Part shown: in pieces, positions 3 through 8,761 of the stretch | Layout of the letters: each line of letters opens with the position of its first letter | Position numbering within the stretch: position 1 is the stretch's first letter | Source: an uncultured Algimonas sp. | Lineage (GTDB): Bacteria; Pseudomonadota; Alphaproteobacteria; Caulobacterales; Maricaulaceae | NCBI RefSeq assembly: GCF_947498175.1 | Contig: NZ_CANMJB010000004.1 | Coordinates: 62,001 to 126,000, forward strand | Direction of reading: 5' to 3' | Length of the DNA stretch: 64,000 nt | The notes under the pieces: generated by a model | Databases searched by the model: none | Told to the model about the DNA's origin: nothing | What the model saw: the letters and a program-made list of their open reading frames with translations, nothing else | Made by a program: the position numbers and the translations under genes

Positions 3-287
3 GCGCTGTTGACGGGTCTAGTGGGGTGGATGCTGCCGGACCGGGCATTGCTCTATGTCGCCTATATCCTCGCCATCGCGCTCTGCCTCAGCGCACTGAC
101 GGGCTTCGGCTATTTCTTCATCGGCAACGCCGAAGTGGCGGGGGCCGAATACCGGTCCGATACGGGCGTGCTCGCCGATCTGTGGGGCGGGCCGTATTGG
201 CTTTGGGGCGGCCTGCTGGCCTTGCTGTCGGTCGGTCTTCTGGCCGTCGGGGTGATCGCCTCCGACCGGTTGGCGCGGCAGCGCTGA
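3..287 (+). CDS. Membrane protein, C-terminal fragment (cut by window edge)
   Basis: The frame is open to the left edge, so only the C-terminal ~95 residues of a longer protein are visible; a TTG at 9 could serve as a start but the frame continues upstream of it. Two hydrophobic segments are visible (around residues 15-40 and 65-85 of the fragment), separated by a short polar loop, and the protein ends in a basic tail. It converges on the DUF1523 gene with only four bases between stops. I do not recognise the family; an inner-membrane location is inferred from hydrophobicity alone. Confidence 0.5.
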   Translation, partial: ALLTGLVGWMLPDRALLYVAYILAIALCLSALTGFGYFFIGNAEVAGAEYRSDTGVLADLWGGPYWLWGGLLALLSVGLLAVGVIASDRLARQR

Positions 288-291
288 ACTT

Positions 292-954
292 CTATCGTCT
301 CGGTTTGGAAGAGCCGAAGATCTTGCGCCAGCGCGACTGCACCCGGTCCGTGCCCGCATCGACCGACCGTCCGACTTCGCGCGCCGCGTCGCCGATGCTG
401 TCGCCGACCGCGTCCAGCGTCGGATCGATGCGCTTGGCCTTCCAGCGCCGGACGCTGCGCCAGATCGTGAACCACAGGCCCAGCAACAGGCCGATGAACA
501 CAATGTTGAACCAGGGGATCAGCATCGCATCCGGCCCGGTGACGCGGCGGAAAGACGTCGCATTGGGATAGACGGAGAACATTTTGATGCGCCAGCCATA
601 ATGGCGCACCGCAACCCATGTGTCGTCCTCGCGCGCCAGGCTTTGCGCATCCGCCGTCAGGTCGCCGCTATCGAACTTGAAATAGGGCGGGAAGCCCCAG
701 CCCGTATCCTCATTGCGGTAGACGCGGGCGCGTCCGGTCTCCGTCCGGGCGTTGATGAAGCGCACGTCGCGCGTACCGCCTTCGACCGTGCCGATGTCCG
801 CGCGGTCCCAGAACGGCGCGCTTGAGCCGACATCGATGCGTTTGACTTCGGTCCCGACGATCTGAACCACGTCCCGGTCGGGAAGGTAGTAGTTGAGCAG
901 CACGGCGCCGACGGTGAACAGCAACAACGCCGGCAAATGTCTGAGATATTTCAT
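292..954 (-). CDS. DUF1523 family membrane protein
   Basis: 220 residues. An N-terminal hydrophobic segment (about residues 7-24) is followed by a 'YYLPDRDVVQIVGTEVKRID' stretch typical of DUF1523, then a soluble domain of ~110 residues, a second hydrophobic segment (about 143-162) and a basic C-terminus. This predicts a domain outside the cytoplasm between two membrane anchors. The family's function is unknown. A GAGGAG ribosome-binding site precedes the ATG. It is the last gene of the minus-strand row headed by the coiled-coil protein at 7643, 15 bases after the small membrane protein, so it probably acts with those genes. Confidence 0.8.
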   Translation of the reverse strand: MKYLRHLPALLLFTVGAVLLNYYLPDRDVVQIVGTEVKRIDVGSSAPFWDRADIGTVEGGTRDVRFINARTETGRARVYRNEDTGWGFPPYFKFDSGDLTADAQSLAREDDTWVAVRHYGWRIKMFSVYPNATSFRRVTGPDAMLIPWFNIVFIGLLLGLWFTIWRSVRRWKAKRIDPTLDAVGDSIGDAAREVGRSVDAGTDRVQSRWRKIFGSSKPRR

Positions 955-969
955 GACAGTCTCCTCGGT

Positions 970-1248
970 CTATCCGTACTGGGCCAGCCAGACCAGAAAG
1001 GTCGCGAGCGCACCGGGGATGGCATAGACGAACAGGAACAGCTTCGGACGCAGGGAGCGGCTGTAATCGGTCATTCCGCGCGCGACATATTCGTCCTCGG
1101 TCCCGGTACGGCGCAACAGGTCCGTTCCGGCCTCGTATTCGTCCCGCAGACGTGCGCGTTCGCGCCAGCGGCTCCATTGGCTGAGCGCGATATAGACCAC
1201 GGTCAGGATCGCGAAAATGATGACGATGCCGCGTATCAGTCCGATCAT
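970..1248 (-). CDS. Small two-TM membrane protein
   Basis: 92 residues with an N-terminal hydrophobic segment (about 4-22), a charged middle rich in Arg/Glu/Asp (24-66), and a C-terminal hydrophobic segment (about 70-90). The ATG overlaps the stop of the DUF6638-like gene by four bases, so the two are likely translationally coupled. It sits between DUF6638-like and DUF1523 genes and is probably an inner-membrane partner of that group. No family can be named with confidence and the function is unknown. Confidence 0.7.
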   Translation of the reverse strand: MIGLIRGIVIIFAILTVVYIALSQWSRWRERARLRDEYEAGTDLLRRTGTEDEYVARGMTDYSRSLRPKLFLFVYAIPGALATFLVWLAQYG

Positions 1249-2732
1249 CGGCGTTTCCCCTTCTTGCGCTTCTTGCCGCTATCCTTCTGGCGCTTGTCGT
1301 AGGCGCGGCGCTGCTTGGAACGGTGGCGCCAATCATCGTCGTCGCGGTCGTCGTCATCGTCATCGCCGCGCCCGGCCCAGCCGCGGCTTTCCGCCCAGGG
1401 ATTGGCGCGCCGGGCCTTGCGGTCACCGCGCGAACGACGGCGGCGTTCCGGTTCTTCCTCCATGCTTGGTTCGCGCCCGAACAGGGCTTCACGCGCGCCC
1501 GCCTTGTCCATCGCATATTCCTCTTCCAGGAATTGCACGACGAAAGCGCGCTTGCTCTCCGACCAGCCGCGATAGGCGTCGTAGAAGAGTGGCTTGTGGC
1601 AGATGTAGAGCTGGCGGAAATCGAGCCGTGACAGATCGGTCAGCAGCATGTTGACCAGATCGCGGTCGCGGTGGCTTGATCCGCGCAGCGCGTAGAAGAA
1701 GGCCGGATGGTCGGGGCCGAGCTTGGGCACGCGCCCGCCCATCGAGGCCCAACGCCACACATCCATCAGCCCGTCATATTCCGGCGGGAGTTTCTTGGCG
1801 TAACGGCGTTCCAGCTGGCGCATGTTGCGCCGTGACAGGCCGTCAAGATCGTGCCCGGCCTCGGCGGCCGTCATGGCGACGATGAAGTCCATCTTCTGGC
1901 GGATGATCAACGCGCTGTCCTGATTGGGCCGCTGCACGATCAGTTCGGTCAGCCCCTCGGCATAAAGCCAGTCGGACATCTCCGCGCGCTGATCGAAGGT
2001 CAGGACTTGTGCGATGTCCAGCTCGCGCAGGCCCGGCACCTCTTCGCGCGCGATCACGGTCGGGGTGTCCGCGTCGCGGAACACATAGACACCGCCCAGA
2101 TGGGTCGTGAAATAGTTGCCCTGCGTGAAAACCTGATTGTCCAGCTTTACCGGGTTGCGCTGGATGTCGCCGGTGCGCTTGGCCAACTCAATCATGTCGG
2201 CGATCAGAACGTCGTCCCACCAGGCATCCGGCTCGGCCATGAAACGATCGATCCGTTCGGACAGCTGGCCTGCTTCCTTGACGTGGCTCTGCGTCGTGTC
2301 GGCCGACACCTCGATCCGGTTGATGTCTAGCAGGTCCGCCGGATCGTCGATCTTGAACACGGAGTCCAGAAGTTCGCCCGCCACCGCTTCGCGCGCCGTC
2401 AGGGCGAAGAGCTGATCCTCGTTATCGTCCATGTAGCGCCGCAGGATCGACCGCGAGGTCGAGAATTTCGACCCCAGCAACGGCGCCGTCTTCTGATCTG
2501 TGCTCAGCAGGATGAACATCTGGTTCGCGCCGTGCGGGTTGAGGTAGTAGTCATCCCCGAACTCGTCCGCGATCTCCGGCGAAAACCCGGCAATGTCGAT
2601 GTGAAAGTCCGGCAACTCCGTTCGCCGCCCGATCAGATGCTCCAGCGCGCGGTTATAGCGTTCGACCATGGCCGGGCTGCGCACCTCGAAGAGGTTGCCA
2701 TACATGAGGCCGGCTCTGACGAGGCGCATCAT
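1245..2732 (-). CDS. DUF6638-like protein with charged C-terminal tail
   Basis: 495 residues from the tandem ATG-ATG at 2732/2729. A longer frame reaches 2804, but those extra 24 codons run through a dispersed palindromic repeat, so I use the internal start. The body is soluble and shows no nucleotide-binding motif. The last ~70 residues are low complexity: Arg-rich, then an Asp-rich block, then Lys/Arg-rich, giving a disordered polyampholyte tail. The match to DUF6638, a family I associate with DUF1523 and AAA+ neighbours in marine alphaproteobacteria, is by recollection. Four-base overlap with the next gene supports an operon. Function unknown. Confidence 0.7.
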   Translation of the reverse strand: MMRLVRAGLMYGNLFEVRSPAMVERYNRALEHLIGRRTELPDFHIDIAGFSPEIADEFGDDYYLNPHGANQMFILLSTDQKTAPLLGSKFSTSRSILRRYMDDNEDQLFALTAREAVAGELLDSVFKIDDPADLLDINRIEVSADTTQSHVKEAGQLSERIDRFMAEPDAWWDDVLIADMIELAKRTGDIQRNPVKLDNQVFTQGNYFTTHLGGVYVFRDADTPTVIAREEVPGLRELDIAQVLTFDQRAEMSDWLYAEGLTELIVQRPNQDSALIIRQKMDFIVAMTAAEAGHDLDGLSRRNMRQLERRYAKKLPPEYDGLMDVWRWASMGGRVPKLGPDHPAFFYALRGSSHRDRDLVNMLLTDLSRLDFRQLYICHKPLFYDAYRGWSESKRAFVVQFLEEEYAMDKAGAREALFGREPSMEEEPERRRRSRGDRKARRANPWAESRGWAGRGDDDDDDRDDDDWRHRSKQRRAYDKRQKDSGKKRKKGKRR

Positions 2733-2756
2733 GGGAGAGGCTTTCGCAAGCCGCTT

Positions 2757-2845
2757 GGATCGCACAATCGAGTTGTGCGATGACGGAAATAAAGGGGCCG
2801 CCACTCTGTATATTTTCTGTCATAGCACAGCTTGACTGTGCCATC
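2757..2845. repeat. REP-like palindrome pair, left of the GIY-YIG gene
   Basis: Two copies of a ~23-base palindrome in opposite orientation. The first has arms CGCACAA/TTGTGCG (2761-2779) and the second GCACAG/CTGTGC (2825-2841), each with a 5-base TCGAG/CTTGA loop. Outside the stems both carry the tract TGACGGAAA or its complement, so the pair forms one large imperfect inverted repeat. A matching pair lies at 3254-3349 on the other side of the GIY-YIG gene. Confidence 0.85.
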
Positions 2846-2866
2846 CCTCTGTCCGAGGCCGTCCAC

Positions 2867-3175
2867 ATGAGTATGCGTTTCGGCTTCTGCTACATGATGG
2901 CGTCGGGTTATCACGGAACGATCTATCTGGGCATGACCTCGGACCTTCCCTACCGCGTCTGGGAACAAAAATCCAAAGCCGACCCTGACAGTTTCACGGC
3001 GAGATATGACTGCAACCGGCTCGTCTGGTACGAACGCTACGACCTCGTCATCGATGCCATCGCGCGGGAAAAACAGATCAAGCACTGGAAGCGCGCGTGG
3101 AAGACCGCCTTGATCGAAGAGCTCAATCCGCGCTGGGACGACCTGCCGCTGGACTGGACGATTTATGAGCGGTGA
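2867..3175 (+). CDS. GIY-YIG nuclease family protein
   Basis: 102 residues from ATG 2867 (ATG 2873 is also possible). It has the small stand-alone GIY-YIG fold: the FCY...YLG pair in place of the canonical GIY...YIG, then TSDLPYRVWEQ with the catalytic Arg, and AIAREKQIKHWKR with the metal-binding Glu. Length matches UvrC-like single-domain nucleases (~90-100 residues). It is the only plus-strand gene within a minus-strand row and is bracketed by inverted pairs of REP-like palindromes, suggesting the nuclease and repeats arrived together. DNA cleavage is expected from the family; target and role are unknown. Confidence 0.85.
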   Translation: MSMRFGFCYMMASGYHGTIYLGMTSDLPYRVWEQKSKADPDSFTARYDCNRLVWYERYDLVIDAIAREKQIKHWKRAWKTALIEELNPRWDDLPLDWTIYER

Positions 3176-3253
3176 TCGAAAGCTGCATGGATTGCGAGGT
3201 CTTAGCGCAAGGCGATGATATAAACGCATGCCATGACGCTCCCTTTTTCCGTC

Positions 3254-3349
3254 ATGGCACGACTTGATCGTGCCATCCATGCGGCTTGCAGGATCGCCTG
3301 CGTCGGAGTCAGACGCGAGCAGGGGGATGGCACAGTCGAGCTGTGCCAT
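3254..3349. repeat. REP-like palindrome pair, right of the GIY-YIG gene
   Basis: Two inverted copies: arms ATGGCACGA/TCGTGCCAT (3254-3276) and ATGGCACAG/CTGTGCCAT (3327-3349), each with a 5-base loop. The flank GCGGCTTGC after the first copy also occurs, inverted, beside the leftmost copy near 2744-2760. The whole 2744-3349 block is therefore roughly symmetrical around the nuclease gene. Confidence 0.85.
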
Positions 3350-3378
3350 GACGGAAGAGAGGTGTGTGGGGGCTGGGC

Positions 3379-5322
3379 TCACCCTTTCCCCTCCAAGTAA
3401 CGCCGTTTCGCTTCCTCCATCCGCTCCATCTCGCGGACCGCATTCTCGATCGCCACTTCGTCGCTCTTGTCGGCGTACCGAAACTCGCTGTCGGCGTAGC
3501 GGTTGATTTCCTGGATGACCATGTCGACCGTGATCTCGCTGGCGAGGTCGGCGATCATGGCTTTCTTGGTCTCGTAGTCCTTACGCAGGAACAGCTCCGG
3601 ATCCTCCATCCATTCGTCGGGCAGTTCGAAGTCCATGGCGCGGACCTTGATGGCGTCGGTGATGTTCTTGACGGCACGGCCGGTGAAGCGCGGGTCGGCG
3701 GCCTGGATGGCTTTCAGGTAGGTGCCGAGTTCGGCGATGGTGTCGAGCTTGCCATGCGATTTCGTAACCCTATCGAACACGGCTTCGAGCGCTTCTTCCT
3801 TGGGGCGAGCATAGCTCTCATAGCTGGCCGCGACGGCCTTCTTGATTTCCTGCGCTTCGAACAGGTCGTGGTCGCCGACCGGAATATCGTGGTTCTTGCC
3901 CATCAGCAGATGAAGGATGTCGATATAGTCTTCGCGCGTCTGCGGGCCGTCCACGAGGAAGCGCGCGGACGCGCGCTGGCGAAGCGCGTCGTCCACCTTC
4001 TCCGGATAGTTGGAGAACATGCCGAAGGTGCAGTTGCCGCGCACCACCGTGTTGGCCCCGGCGAAGCTCTCCATCAGGACCGCCGTGATCTCCAGCTGGC
4101 CTGCACTGCTCTGCCGGTCGCCGCGAATACCGGCCAGCTGGTCGATATCGTCGATGGTCCCGAAGCCGATCACGGCGGGGTCGATGATCTGGCGGATGAA
4201 AGCCTTGGCGTTCTGCGCCGATTTGCCTTGATAGGAGTCGATGCTTTCCGTCGAAAGATTGGCGTAACGGAACGGATAGTCCGCCACCGCACAGTAATCG
4301 TTGATCAGCCCCGCCATCATCTGGATCAGAATCGTCTTGCCGGTCCCGGGCAGGCCGTCGCCCATGAAGGTGAAAATGAACCCGCCCAACTCCGCGAACG
4401 GGTTCAGCCGCCGGTCGAAATCATAAGCCATCAGCATCTTGGACAGCTTCATCGCCTGGTATTTGGCGATATGGTTGCCCACGACCTCGTGCGGCTTCTT
4501 GAAGTCCATGGTCAGGGTGGTGGACCGCGCTCGACTGGCGGCTTCGAAGCCGCGGATTTCGAAGTCGTCTTCCTCCACGCGGTAGGCGACCGACGTGAAC
4601 GCCTCCAGTCGCGGAAGGTTCGCGGCGCGCATCTGGGCGCGGTCGAGCAGTTGCTCGAGGAAGGCCGTGACGGTCGGGACCAGCTTGTCCTCGCTGTCGG
4701 CGAAGAGGGCGAGCGTCTGGTCGAGCTCCCACAGCGCGCCGGAAAGCGCCGTCTGCGCATTGTCGGTCAGCACTTCCTCCACGTCGCCCACATCGACGGA
4801 CAGTTCAGATGTCTCGTGCAAGGACGACAGGAGGTAGCTCGCCATGTTCGCGAAGACGTGCAGGGCGATGACCGATCCGGCGGCGAGGCCTTCGTTGAAC
4901 TCGGACTTGCGCACCTCGGGCAGGCGGCCTTCCAGATTGTCCTTCATCAAAGCCGACAGGCCGGTCGCGTCGGAGTATTGGTCCACGACGGCCAGCGCGG
5001 TCGCCAGCGCGCGCCTGAGCGCGTGCAGTACACCCGCCTGCACCGGGCTGGTCAGCGCATCGTCGGGCGTGGTGGCTTCGACGCGCGCGATCAGGTTCAC
5101 GCCTTCGGCGCGCGCCGTGCTCTGCGTCACCAGTCCGGGCGTGGTGGACCGGAAGCGGCGGCGACCCGGCAAGCCGGCGGACTTGCCAGGCGCGGGCGAA
5201 ACGTCGCGGGCCTTGGCCAGACGCGGCGTATGGTCGAACCCGTCCAGCAGCGATTGCGCGGCCGGAATCTTGTCCGCGATCGCGCTCTCTTTCAATTCCA
5301 TCAGGTCGGACGGTTCGGACAT
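3379..5322 (-). CDS. AAA+ family ATPase
   Basis: 647 residues. The N-terminal ~270 residues are mostly helical with no named domain. The AAA+ module begins near 310: Walker A GDGLPGTGKT at 321-330, Walker B around 385-394 with an IDDID core (Asp-Asp instead of Asp-Glu), a polar sensor-like Asn in 'FGMFSNYP' near 438, and an arginine-finger candidate in RQRASARF near 449-456. A ~190-residue helical C-terminus follows. An energy-driven remodelling role is expected; the substrate is unknown. The unknown-function gene upstream ends six bases before this start. It belongs to the coiled-coil/DUF6638/DUF1523 row. Confidence 0.85.
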   Translation of the reverse strand: MSEPSDLMELKESAIADKIPAAQSLLDGFDHTPRLAKARDVSPAPGKSAGLPGRRRFRSTTPGLVTQSTARAEGVNLIARVEATTPDDALTSPVQAGVLHALRRALATALAVVDQYSDATGLSALMKDNLEGRLPEVRKSEFNEGLAAGSVIALHVFANMASYLLSSLHETSELSVDVGDVEEVLTDNAQTALSGALWELDQTLALFADSEDKLVPTVTAFLEQLLDRAQMRAANLPRLEAFTSVAYRVEEDDFEIRGFEAASRARSTTLTMDFKKPHEVVGNHIAKYQAMKLSKMLMAYDFDRRLNPFAELGGFIFTFMGDGLPGTGKTILIQMMAGLINDYCAVADYPFRYANLSTESIDSYQGKSAQNAKAFIRQIIDPAVIGFGTIDDIDQLAGIRGDRQSSAGQLEITAVLMESFAGANTVVRGNCTFGMFSNYPEKVDDALRQRASARFLVDGPQTREDYIDILHLLMGKNHDIPVGDHDLFEAQEIKKAVAASYESYARPKEEALEAVFDRVTKSHGKLDTIAELGTYLKAIQAADPRFTGRAVKNITDAIKVRAMDFELPDEWMEDPELFLRKDYETKKAMIADLASEITVDMVIQEINRYADSEFRYADKSDEVAIENAVREMERMEEAKRRYLEGKG

Positions 5323-5328
5323 GGCTTC

Positions 5329-6462
5329 CTATCTGTAGCTGAGGATGGTGTCGTTGCGGCCGACGACATATTTGCGCACGCCGTCGAACCGCTCGGAATA
5401 TTTCTCTTCCAGCACCTGGTAGGCACGGTGGGGCAGGATCAGGGCGCGGTCGATGCGGGTATAGCCGTCCGTCTTGCCGTCCAGCCCGTAGGCGTCGAGC
5501 GTGTAGACCTGCCGCCAAGCCGCGTTAAAAATGCCGGTCTTGACCCATTCCTGACCTTCGGACAGCAGCGTCTCGACTGTCCAGGCAAGCGACCAGTCGA
5601 GTCCCGGAGGGCTGTCGGCTTCGGCCAGCACGTCGCGGATCGGGCCGTGCTGTTCGGTGAAGGCATGGCTGTGCATGGGCCCCAGATGGAACCGCCGCAG
5701 GCTCTTGGGGGCCAGGTCGCGGAAATCCGTATCGAACCCCTTGGCGATGGTCAGCAGTTTCAGCTCTGACACGGCTTGGGCCATCAGCGCGTCCTGCACG
5801 CGCGGCCAGCGGCGTTCATCCTGCGGCAGGGCGCGGCTGCCCGTATCGTCCACCTTCATCAGGTAGACGACCGGGATGTTGGTCTTGGAATCATAGACCG
5901 CCCAGTGAAGAATGTAGCGGCGTTTCTTCTTCTTGATGTCCTTGCCGACCCAGACGGCCTGCGGATGGTTCTGCGACAGGAAGAGCGGCTGGCCGTCCAA
6001 CGTTTCGTAATAGATGCGCTGCGCCATGGCGTATTGCAGGTCGATGGGTGCGGTCTGTTCGGACAGGATGTGGTTGACCATGTCCTTCTTCAACCGGTCC
6101 TGTTCGGGCAGCGACCCGAGGTGCAACTTGGCCTGTCTGGCATCGGTCGCGAGCTGGATCAGTTCGGAAAAGACGGGAAAGCCGCTCTCCGTCTTGTCGA
6201 GGCTCATCTTGCCCGACCCCGACGCCCGGTTGGTCATCAGATATTTGTAGGACAGGGCCGTGAAGCTGTTCGACAGGTCGGACAGGTACTGGCCGAGAAT
6301 GTCGCCTTCGGTCTTGCCGATCTGGCGTTCTTCGACGGACAGGCGCGTAACGGAGCGCATATGTCCGATGATACGTTCGAATTTAGCGAAATAGCGCCGC
6401 GCCGCCCGCGCATTGTCCAGGACGCGGTGTTCGTAGGTGAGGTCGAATTTGGGTGCGGCCAT
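5329..6462 (-). CDS. Conserved-cluster protein of unknown function
   Basis: 377 residues with no signal peptide, no clear membrane segment and no motif I recognise. It looks globular, with basic patches such as KDIKKKKRR near the middle (about residue 175). It lies immediately upstream of the AAA+ ATPase (six-base gap) and downstream of the coiled-coil gene (98-base gap), so a shared transcript is likely. The tight spacing suggests it may be a partner or substrate adaptor of the ATPase; that is inference from position only. Confidence 0.75.
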   Translation of the reverse strand: MAAPKFDLTYEHRVLDNARAARRYFAKFERIIGHMRSVTRLSVEERQIGKTEGDILGQYLSDLSNSFTALSYKYLMTNRASGSGKMSLDKTESGFPVFSELIQLATDARQAKLHLGSLPEQDRLKKDMVNHILSEQTAPIDLQYAMAQRIYYETLDGQPLFLSQNHPQAVWVGKDIKKKKRRYILHWAVYDSKTNIPVVYLMKVDDTGSRALPQDERRWPRVQDALMAQAVSELKLLTIAKGFDTDFRDLAPKSLRRFHLGPMHSHAFTEQHGPIRDVLAEADSPPGLDWSLAWTVETLLSEGQEWVKTGIFNAAWRQVYTLDAYGLDGKTDGYTRIDRALILPHRAYQVLEEKYSERFDGVRKYVVGRNDTILSYR

Positions 6463-6560
6463 CTAGAGCGCACCCAGCCGCGTCGGAGTCGGTTTGCTCG
6501 CTGGATGCCCGCATGTGGGGGGAAGAGCGAAGTCGAAACAGGTCATCGGGACAGGCCGCT

Positions 6561-7643
6561 CTAGGACGCCTCCCCATATGCGTTCGCATCATGCTTCTCG
6601 ACGATCGCCTCGAACCGGCGGGCGAAGCGCTCATCGGCCTTGGCTTTCTCTTCCAGCACCTTCCGGGCGAAGACGATATGGTCCTCATGGGCTTCCATCA
6701 TTTCGGCCATCTTGTTGTTCGTCGCCGAGCCGATGGCGGCCATGGCCACCTGGGCTTCCTGATCGGTCGCGACACCGATTTCGTTGATCTTGTGCGCGAC
6801 ATCCTGCTGCTGCGCGGTCTTCAGCGACTTGGACAGCGCATCATAGAGCACGACCCGCTGCTTGGTGTCGGTCTGGAGCTTGTTGAGCAAGACCATCTGC
6901 GTGGCGATCTGGTTCTGCAAGCTATCCATCCAGGTCTTGCCCTTCTCGATATAGCGTTCCAGCGTCTGGGACTCCGATAGCTTGACCTGTTCGAGTTGGG
7001 CTAGCTCGTTATGGCGCGAATTGACTTCCGCCAGCTCGGACTCCAGCCGGGCACGTTCCTTGGCGTCGGTCGCGACCGACAGCTTGTTTTCCAGCTCGAT
7101 GATCTGCGGGTCCAGCGCGGTGATCTCGGTCTTGATCTGCTCCAAACTCTCCACGGCGGCCTCGCGGTCGGCCAGCGTCTTCTGCAGATTGCCCTCGACC
7201 TGCGTCTTGTGGCGGCCCAGCTCGTTCAGCTGTTCCTGCAGCATGGCCTGTATGGTGTTGGACTTGGCGATCAGATCCTGCAGCTTGTCTTCGATGGTGG
7301 CGGCGCGGATACGCTCGCTGCGCAAGGATTCCGAGCGCTGCTTGGAAAAGATGCCGACGAACTTCTCCCAGCCGGTCTTGTTGCGCATCGCGTCGAAATC
7401 CTTGGAGAACCCGGACGTCACATCGTCCAGCCCCATGATCAGCTCGGCGATGTTGGCGTTCATCAACTCCGTATGCGCATGGACATCGTCGAGTGAGGCG
7501 GTTTCAAGGTCGAGCGAGATATCCGTTCCCTTCGCCATCTTGGATCGGGCCGTGTCGATGCGCGAGGACAGTTCGGCGATCCGGCTCTGCGCTTCGGCGA
7601 CTTCCTTTTTGGATTGTTCGATTTGAGCGTCGAATGTCGGCAT
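6561..7643 (-). CDS. Coiled-coil protein heading the AAA+ cluster
   Basis: 360 residues, almost entirely predicted helical, with heptad-like Leu/Ile spacing from about residue 5-45 and 110-260 and very high Glu/Gln/Lys/Ala content. There is no signal peptide or membrane segment. The general look recalls TelA/SMC-like coiled coils, but no diagnostic motif supports an assignment. It is the first gene of the minus-strand row; a GGAG site lies about ten bases before the ATG and a sigma-70-like promoter candidate is at 7676-7704. A structural or filament role with the AAA+ protein is plausible but untested. Confidence 0.8.
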   Translation of the reverse strand: MPTFDAQIEQSKKEVAEAQSRIAELSSRIDTARSKMAKGTDISLDLETASLDDVHAHTELMNANIAELIMGLDDVTSGFSKDFDAMRNKTGWEKFVGIFSKQRSESLRSERIRAATIEDKLQDLIAKSNTIQAMLQEQLNELGRHKTQVEGNLQKTLADREAAVESLEQIKTEITALDPQIIELENKLSVATDAKERARLESELAEVNSRHNELAQLEQVKLSESQTLERYIEKGKTWMDSLQNQIATQMVLLNKLQTDTKQRVVLYDALSKSLKTAQQQDVAHKINEIGVATDQEAQVAMAAIGSATNNKMAEMMEAHEDHIVFARKVLEEKAKADERFARRFEAIVEKHDANAYGEAS

Positions 7644-7912: not shown

Positions 7913-8761
7913 ATGAAAAAACTGCGCTCATTGTCCGTGATCGTCGTAGGGCAGACGGCATTCTTCGCTCTGACGGTCCTGATGGCTGTGCTGGTTGGAA
8001 CGGGTGCGGCCGAACCGTGGATCGTCTGTCTGGCAGGCGGCGCATTGCTGGCGCTGGCATCGGCGGGGACGATCGTCGCATCGCGTCGCCTCGACGCGGA
8101 ATTCGACCGGATGATCGCAGCTGTGGAAGACGTCGCCACAACGGCAGCGGCACAGGCCGTGCCGGACAGCCGAGACGGCGAAACCTCCCGATTGCACAAT
8201 GCCTTGAAGAAAGGCTTGCGCCGGATCGCCCAAGGCAAGGTCTCGCACAGGATTGCAGGGTCGTTCGCCGCCGATCACGAAGATCTGGTGAGCGGTTTCA
8301 ACGCCATGGCCGCCGAGCTCAATTCGGTCGTGTTCCGAGTCGGGACCGGCACGAGCGGCGTTGAGGCCGGGATCGCCGAGATCGAAGCCGAAATCGTGGA
8401 GTGGATCGCTGCCTTGGAACGGGGGTCGGCCGTGCGGAGCATGATGGAACAGACTTTGGAGCGCGCGCTCGAAACATGCGACGCGGCGTCGTCGGAACGC
8501 GGCAGGGATCCGGAAGATCCGCTGCGGACTGATCTAGACCGTGTGGCGGAAGGTATGCGCCTGGCGATCGGCCAGGCCGGGGAACTTGCCGCCCTATCGC
8601 GCGACGGCTTGATGTCGGCAGGGCGCGCGTCAGTCGCGGTCGGTTATCTGACGACCGACAATCAGGGTGTGCGGTGGGTGCTGGCCCGGTTCAGCCCGGA
8701 AAGCCTTGTCGGTGCGCCCGCCGATGCGGATAGGGTGACGCCTCGGCTCAGGATCGTCTGA
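7913..8761 (+). CDS. HAMP-containing membrane protein lacking an MCP signalling hairpin
   Basis: 282 residues. Two hydrophobic segments (about 8-30 and 36-57) form a membrane hairpin with almost no periplasmic loop. Residues ~95-155 ('LKKGLRRIAQGKVSHRI...FNAMAAELN') resemble the second HAMP/linker repeat of Caulobacter-type methyl-accepting chemotaxis proteins. The conserved glutamate-rich hairpin tip that binds CheW/CheA is absent; instead ~100 residues of unrelated sequence follow. An AGGGTGA site precedes the ATG. It could be a decayed chemoreceptor or a small membrane sensor; no chemotaxis genes are nearby. Confidence 0.7.
   Translation: MKKLRSLSVIVVGQTAFFALTVLMAVLVGTGAAEPWIVCLAGGALLALASAGTIVASRRLDAEFDRMIAAVEDVATTAAAQAVPDSRDGETSRLHNALKKGLRRIAQGKVSHRIAGSFAADHEDLVSGFNAMAAELNSVVFRVGTGTSGVEAGIAEIEAEIVEWIAALERGSAVRSMMEQTLERALETCDAASSERGRDPEDPLRTDLDRVAEGMRLAIGQAGELAALSRDGLMSAGRASVAVGYLTTDNQGVRWVLARFSPESLVGAPADADRVTPRLRIV

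Follow-up and report, generated by a model that had tools for sequence, protein, structure and literature searches.

To our knowledge, few classical AAA motors in bacteria have known jobs. A putative motor of this class is encoded in a six-gene locus that we analysed in a 64,000-nucleotide stretch of DNA from an uncultured Algimonas sp. (contig NZ_CANMJB010000004.1, positions 62,001 to 126,000), hereafter called the window. The locus lies at positions 292 to 7643 of the window and encodes, in the direction of its minus strand, a coiled-coil protein (CC), a protein without family (U2), the ATPase (AAA), a DUF6638 protein, a small protein with two hydrophobic stretches of transmembrane (TM) length (sTM), and a DUF1523 protein. 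Vps4/ESCRT-III resembles this arrangement in that a classical AAA protein with an aromatic-x-Gly loop is found beside a helical, coil-rich protein and membrane-linked genes, and Vps4 is among the closest solved relatives of the window ATPase by sequence. The differences are several: Pfam scans of the ATPase and 28 relatives found no MIT domain, CC has no Snf7 or PspA match, the Walker B Glu is replaced by Asp, and two extra co-travelling partners without known function, U2 and DUF6638, are present here.

Other described systems share single features with the locus. FtsH and the i-AAA protease have the AAA core and a Y-x-G pore loop, but no protease domain was matched by Pfam in the window ATPase, which also has no hydrophobic stretch. 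The TRIP13/Pch2 AAA protein of CBASS is echoed by a weak match to the PADLOC TRIP13 profile over the AAA domain (E 4.6e-05); however, none of the six proteins has a CD-NTase, HORMA or effector match in Pfam or PADLOC. TelA (PF05816) is, like CC, a long helical protein, and the two have a WEK motif at a comparable place in an hhalign alignment, but CC has no significant sequence match to TelA, and a search of the window's genome found no TelA. Bacterial PspA/Snf7 genes adjoin classical AAA genes, according to passages of PMC11237479. This is a precedent for the logic of a motor with a helical partner, although the sequence tests applied to CC did not place it in those families.

A four-gene core kept in order

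A single scan of a genome collection, queried with the AAA protein, returned 49 loci, a set selected therefore for the ATPase, from Hellea, Robiginitomaculum, Rhodobacteraceae, Roseibium/Stappia and Rhizobiales, together with two records assigned to Proteobacteria only. Within the extent of each record, the order CC-U2-AAA-DUF6638 on a single strand is kept in 49 of 49 loci. CC was found by tblastn in 42 of them, and the remaining seven records start at or inside U2 or AAA; DUF6638 was found in 46, and of the other three records two stop just past AAA and one inside it. Because the same order recurs in all of these loci, even though they were AAA-selected, the core arrangement is not due to chance. 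The original prediction, which treated all six genes as one unit, had put forward a gene-neighbourhood survey as the test that could overturn it; the core families co-occur and keep their order, and for the core the test did not overturn the prediction. It had also stated that the cluster has no described function, and the literature searched gave no separate known role for the families. Searches by the family names DUF6638, DUF1523 and DUF2333 returned no title or abstract opening that concerns this operon, and the name DUF6638 was absent from the literature searched, in which DUF1523 was named in 4 papers and DUF2333 in 1. The operon is thus real and conserved, and was not found under these family names in that literature.

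Since the 49 loci had been selected with AAA, a fixed set of genomes provides a fairer test of co-occurrence. We used 61 genomes, one per genus, from a single family (that of genome G022). CC and AAA are present in an identical 28 of the 61, and DUF6638 in the same 28 plus one, G332, where the match begins at base 529 of a contig; an assembly break is likely there. DUF1523 is distributed more widely, in 52 of 61 genomes: all 28 core-positive ones and 24 of the 33 without CC and AAA (Fisher p 0.0026, uncorrected for kinship). One of those 24, G332, has DUF6638. Thus, the cluster consists of a core plus accessory genes. Ten of the 24 available core-negative DUF1523 regions were inspected; the DUF1523 locus is retained in them, a small TM gene was called in seven, and several have flanking gene clusters in common with core-positive genomes. 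In 12 of the 49 loci AAA and DUF6638 are separated by another small membrane gene, c9, which in four of the ten core-negative regions adjoins the DUF1523 locus. Since c9 can be interposed in this way and left behind when the core is missing, the trio CC-U2-AAA and DUF6638 co-vary even when they are not adjacent.

In wider samples of genomes, counting the window's own, AAA was found in 5 of 289 genomes of the class and 26 of 398 of the phylum; in the order of genome G211 it was found in 1 of 43. One genome from outside the class, G429, has CC, U2, AAA, DUF6638 and DUF1523, with AAA and CC at 64% identity to the window proteins. Across Alphaproteobacteria, the four-gene core is present or absent as a set.

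The membrane neighbours behave differently from the core. DUF1523 (292-954, minus strand) matches PF07509 with E 5e-61 (205.5 bits vs a cut-off of 23), and sTM lies at 970-1248 on the same strand; by a hydropathy threshold only, each has two membrane-length hydrophobic stretches, and CC, U2, AAA and DUF6638 have none. Past DUF6638, where 44 of the 49 records extend and five end too early, DUF1523 was found in 31 of 44 loci and a DUF2333-like protein, named from the annotation of Sinorhizobium meliloti, in 13 of 44 (Rhizobiales-type). By tblastn the two occur together in none of the 44, and a small two-TM gene was found in 24 of the 31 DUF1523 loci. The core's membrane neighbours therefore switch between lineages, either the DUF1523 pair or a DUF2333-like protein. 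The core of four is what holds of the predicted six-gene unit; DUF1523 and sTM are a separable accessory pair, and could be bystanders.

The order of the core holds over the distance from Alphaproteobacteria to Vibrio, with protein identities to the window of 23-42%. In Vibrio parahaemolyticus and V. vulnificus the core is carried on plasmids of 0.88-0.94 Mb (4 records), with CC, U2 and AAA in the same order, as is DUF6638 in the two that were opened (L092, L093). Both of these plasmids (about 0.9 Mb) have mfd near the core, and also a gene of the RNase H family. S. meliloti has, in this order, CC, U2, AAA, a gene with an endonuclease domain and an IS4 element, DUF6638 (assigned by similarity) and DUF2333. 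The S. meliloti record is labelled pSymB, yet is 3.7 Mb long with choline-transport genes, which we take to be chromosomal. Rhizobium leguminosarum pSK03 (L095:8794-11148) has a reduced version, flanked as in S. meliloti by the genes for thymidine kinase and formate-tetrahydrofolate ligase: of the set, just DUF2333 and a CC relative are left, with no U2, AAA or DUF6638. This relative is 32% identical to S. meliloti CC over 92% of its length, has a different C-terminus, and lacks 22 residues equivalent to window positions 270-291, a block in which 8 of 22 positions are invariant among 29 CC proteins from full systems.

Trees of the two best conserved proteins (FastTree, midpoint root, without printed support values) differ. 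In the AAA tree the window protein is placed with Hellea, and that group and Roseibium/Stappia nest inside Rhodobacteraceae; in the CC tree the window group falls outside Rhodobacteraceae plus Roseibium/Stappia. As the trees conflict, no direction of transfer was assigned. Horizontal transfer combined with losses fits the patchy presence of the core and its occurrence in G429.

The ATPase and the other core proteins

AAA (3379-5322, minus strand, 647 residues) matches PF00004 above the cut-off (E 2.3e-11), as do all 29 members of an alignment of proteins 41-75% identical to it; the N-terminal half has no family match. In these 29 proteins every position but the fourth of the Walker A sequence GDGxPGTGKT is invariant, as is the pore loop Y364-Q365-G366. 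In the second region of homology S437, N438 (the sensor-1 Asn), R448 and R450 are likewise invariant and align with Vps4 and fidgetin-like 1, R448 and R450 being the presumed arginine fingers. In the alignments shown, YQG falls on the aromatic-x-Gly pore loop in three of the four chains (i-AAA protease, Vps4 and AFG2). The Walker B residues are D391-D392 in 29 of 29, with Asp in place of the catalytic Glu, and align onto the DE of solved AAA proteins; DE itself is absent, and the PF00004 match stands. By its sequence, then, the predicted motor is a classical AAA protein bearing the marks of substrate threading together with a fixed Glu-to-Asp change. Judged by counting gene numbers from choX, the AAA gene of S. 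meliloti could possibly be SMc02733. SMc02733 appears as a ChvI-bound intragenic fragment in a table entry of PMC3687685.

CC (6561-7643, minus strand, 360 residues) is conserved almost like the ATPase, with mean pairwise distances across 39 loci of 0.408 for CC and 0.381 for AAA. An alignment of 29 sequences has 48 invariant columns, 25 of which lie within residues 226-305. The AlphaFold2 model of CC is all-helical (mean pLDDT 70.8), with long predicted helices at 117-190 and 194-285. The matches of fold searches with it were helical bundles of a generic kind (ClyA-type pore formers, syntaxin, SMC and F-BAR coils); the best VIA Z was 13.3, with a root-mean-square deviation (rmsd) of 7.8 over 203 aligned residues, an unspecific level for helical bundles, and Foldseek gave no match with E 0.001 or less. 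CC and U2 have no family in Pfam, NCBIfam, PADLOC or PHROGs, with weak or generic coil matches at most, and searches with profiles of CC, U2, DUF6638 and DUF1523 gave no convincing match to a protein of known structure.

Two candidate relationships of CC were tried and set aside. Homology to PspA/ESCRT-III is unsupported by sequence, as profile comparison stayed at decoy level: the best CC match of the PspA profile (E 0.051) ranked behind a reversed sequence at 0.003. Visual inspection and a weak hhalign score had hinted at homology to TelA, which was dropped when profile searches gave no support. The TelA profile had no CC among its best 25 matches (E up to 7.4), the search with the CC profile found a single PspA (E 8.9) and no TelA, and neither ESCRT-III nor PspA nor TelA was among the best 25 of 28 families for the 29 CC members. 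By hhalign, CC against TelA scored 16.5 over nearly full length (reversed controls 5.9 and 5.5; probability 3.8%) and CC against PspA 12.2 (reversed controls 2.6 and 2.2; probability 1.1%), and 7.4 was the score of an additional control in which TelA was set against reversed PspA. A PspA gene is present in the window's genome itself (L065, G000:C3 at about 384512), and frames near it resemble PspC and PspF by eye.

U2 (5329-6462, minus strand, 377 residues) gave a confident alpha/beta model (pLDDT 90.2). Its best match among the PDB chains compared is urate oxidase (Z 4.8, rmsd 3.6, 119 aligned residues), a low score that is no proof of a new fold, and in BFVD no match reached E 0.001. Over residues 176-340 the 50 weak structural matches include many entries of urate oxidase, DHNA, GTP cyclohydrolase I and QueF/QueD, which we take to be tunnelling-fold proteins, so that this half of the U2 model is possibly tunnelling-fold-like; we treat this as a lead only. 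Weak matches of the TelA profile to many U2 orthologues had a best E of 0.17, outranked by a reversed sequence at 0.14, and one U2 member matched TelA in Pfam at E 0.097; all of these are below significance.

DUF6638 (1245-2732, minus strand) matches PF20343 with E 2e-181 (604 bits vs a cut-off of 27). Its longest ORF (open reading frame) begins at a GTG at 2804, and the start common to its relatives is the ATG at 2732. Among 20 aligned DUF6638 proteins, a long charged C-terminal tail is found only in the window and three Hellea-type relatives, and is thus no part of the conserved machine; the family assignment in the original prediction was borne out, and the polyampholyte tail that it included was set aside. 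Across the 39 loci U2 and DUF6638 have mean pairwise distances of 0.547 and 0.537. Among the four core proteins these distances show correlations of 0.948-0.977, shared descent not removed, the tightest being that of U2 and DUF6638 (0.977); such values are expected of genes inherited together.

A putative remodelling machine and its alternatives

The reading that we prefer, tentatively and at somewhat less than even odds, is that CC, U2, AAA and DUF6638 make up one ATP-driven remodelling machine, in which AAA would be a threading motor acting on CC at the inner membrane. The AAA protein would form a ring whose YQG pore loops pull on CC, contact being made probably through the conserved stretch 226-305; a helical assembly of CC, situated on the inner face of this membrane, would thereby be disassembled or remodelled. 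CC would accordingly be the main client or scaffold of the motor, U2 and DUF6638 may serve as adaptor or regulator, and the lineage-specific proteins (sTM with DUF1523, or the DUF2333-like protein) would tie the assembly to the membrane. The action would be like that of Vps4 on ESCRT-III, built from other families. We favour a single machine because the core order is the same in 49 loci, CC and AAA occupy the same 28 of 61 genomes and DUF6638 co-varies with them; a threading motor because Walker A, YQG, the sensor-1 Asn and R448/R450 are invariant; and CC as the client because it is conserved like the motor and because its motor-less relative on pSK03 lacks residues 270-291. The earlier description of an energy-driven envelope or filament machine survives in part: the motor motifs support ATP-driven remodelling, a membrane location is supported only through neighbours that vary with lineage, and for a filament there is nothing beyond the predicted all-helical model of CC.

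Several observations weigh against this reading. The Asp-for-Glu change in Walker B could mean slow or altered hydrolysis, and in the best-scoring alignment shown, that with fidgetin-like 1, a gap moves YQG off the pore loop. Confidence in the CC model is only moderate, with pLDDT below 50 at residues 279-320, and Pfam (E up to 1) places CC in no Snf7, ESCRT-III, PspA or other filament family. The ATPase-less Rhizobium case is one locus, and its CC relative keeps another conserved block, 241-262, with nine invariant positions. No DUF1523 or DUF2333 is found beside the core on the two Vibrio plasmids opened. The core genes also may not share one transcript, given the 646-base insert in the window and the long CC-U2 gaps, which exceed 100 bases in 18 of 41 loci.

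The closeness of the other pair of genes bears on a rather unlikely alternative, that AAA is a chaperone-type remodeller acting on U2, DUF6638 or a membrane complex as its client, with CC a fixed scaffold or tether. MoxR/RavA and Pch2/TRIP13 follow such a logic. The gap between U2 and AAA is 81 bases or less in 34 of 41 loci, closer than that between CC and U2, and the distances of U2 and DUF6638 are the most tightly correlated; the TRIP13 profile match of AAA fits as well. However, it is CC, conserved like the motor, that is missing a conserved block where the motor is absent, and no HORMA-like match was listed for U2, although the fold search could miss one. A bolder form of our own proposal we hold to be doubtful: that the locus would be an independently arisen counterpart of ESCRT-III/Vps4, in which an AAA ring loaded by DUF6638 and a new-fold U2 disassembles an inner-membrane polymer of an unrelated coiled-coil protein, the whole being a mobile four-gene block that swaps anchors (the DUF1523 pair, DUF2333) between hosts.

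Improbable on the present evidence is a horizontally spreading conflict or anti-phage system. The core is patchy, being found in 28 of 61 genera of a single family and in 1 of 43 genomes from the order of G211, it occurs in another class at 64% identity for AAA and CC, and the AAA tree nests window-type copies inside Rhodobacteraceae; the CC tree shows no such nesting, though, PADLOC gave the six proteins only generic AAA or coil matches and none that was specific, and no match was found in phage records (queried with window AAA and Vibrio CC) or viral contigs. The strong conservation of CC and AAA is also atypical of defence genes. That CC is a remote homologue of PspA/ESCRT-III or TelA in a divergent envelope-stress system seems a little less probable again. 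Both hhalign scores exceed their own reversed controls and bacterial PspA/Snf7 genes do adjoin classical AAA genes (passages of PMC11237479), but the hhalign probabilities are only a few per cent, the extra control reached 7.4, and the profile searches were at decoy level or empty, with no such family among the best 25 of 28 for the CC members. The last alternative is that the genes have separate functions and lie side by side through chance or common ancestry. In its favour, DUF1523 is also found where CC and AAA are missing, and common ancestry by itself raises distance correlations. Against it stand the order shared between Alphaproteobacteria and Vibrio at 23-42% identity and the matching presence across 61 genera; this explanation is disfavoured for the core genes and is hardly credible.

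A motor, an equally conserved coiled coil and two partners of unknown kind, found together from Rhizobiales to Vibrio plasmids, point to an undescribed ATP-driven process. The core offers a set of four genes for joint deletion, a defined CC block for mutation and naturally occurring loss variants for comparison; the question is therefore directly testable.

Locus layout and the spacer insert

All six ORFs are on the minus strand, with intergenic gaps of 98, 6, 646, -4 and 15 bases from CC to DUF1523; the one-direction layout and gaps were confirmed as predicted, with the spacer now set at 646 bases. This spacer (2733-3378), between AAA and DUF6638, contains a foreign insert and is not counted as part of the machine. 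Its GIY-YIG gene (longest ORF 2780-3175, plus strand) is surrounded by four imperfect palindromes at about 2759, 2815, 3247 and 3327. The window's genome has three further GIY-YIG relatives, but no copy of the palindrome within 7 mismatches was found in their surrounding 2-kb stretches. The corresponding spacer of S. meliloti (L094:11106-12851) holds the endonuclease-domain gene and ISRm16, the IS4 element. Unrelated genes thus occupy the spacer in the window and S. meliloti, and perhaps, by eye, in Hellea balneolensis; its length ranges from -4 to 1,350 bases in loci with both ends set.

A search for sigma-70-like promoters found none, vs a mean of 2.0 in shuffled sequence, and terminator-like sites numbered 7, vs a mean of 6.9, neither count being informative. 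Upstream of CC, a divergent frame at 7913-8761 of the window appears by eye to be a membrane-anchored HAMP-type fragment without a signalling domain. At the other end of the locus, the start of a plus-strand frame from -345 to 287 resembles an M50-type peptidase by eye, and an FlhB-like frame, also judged by eye, lies farther out, within the 2 kb preceding the window.

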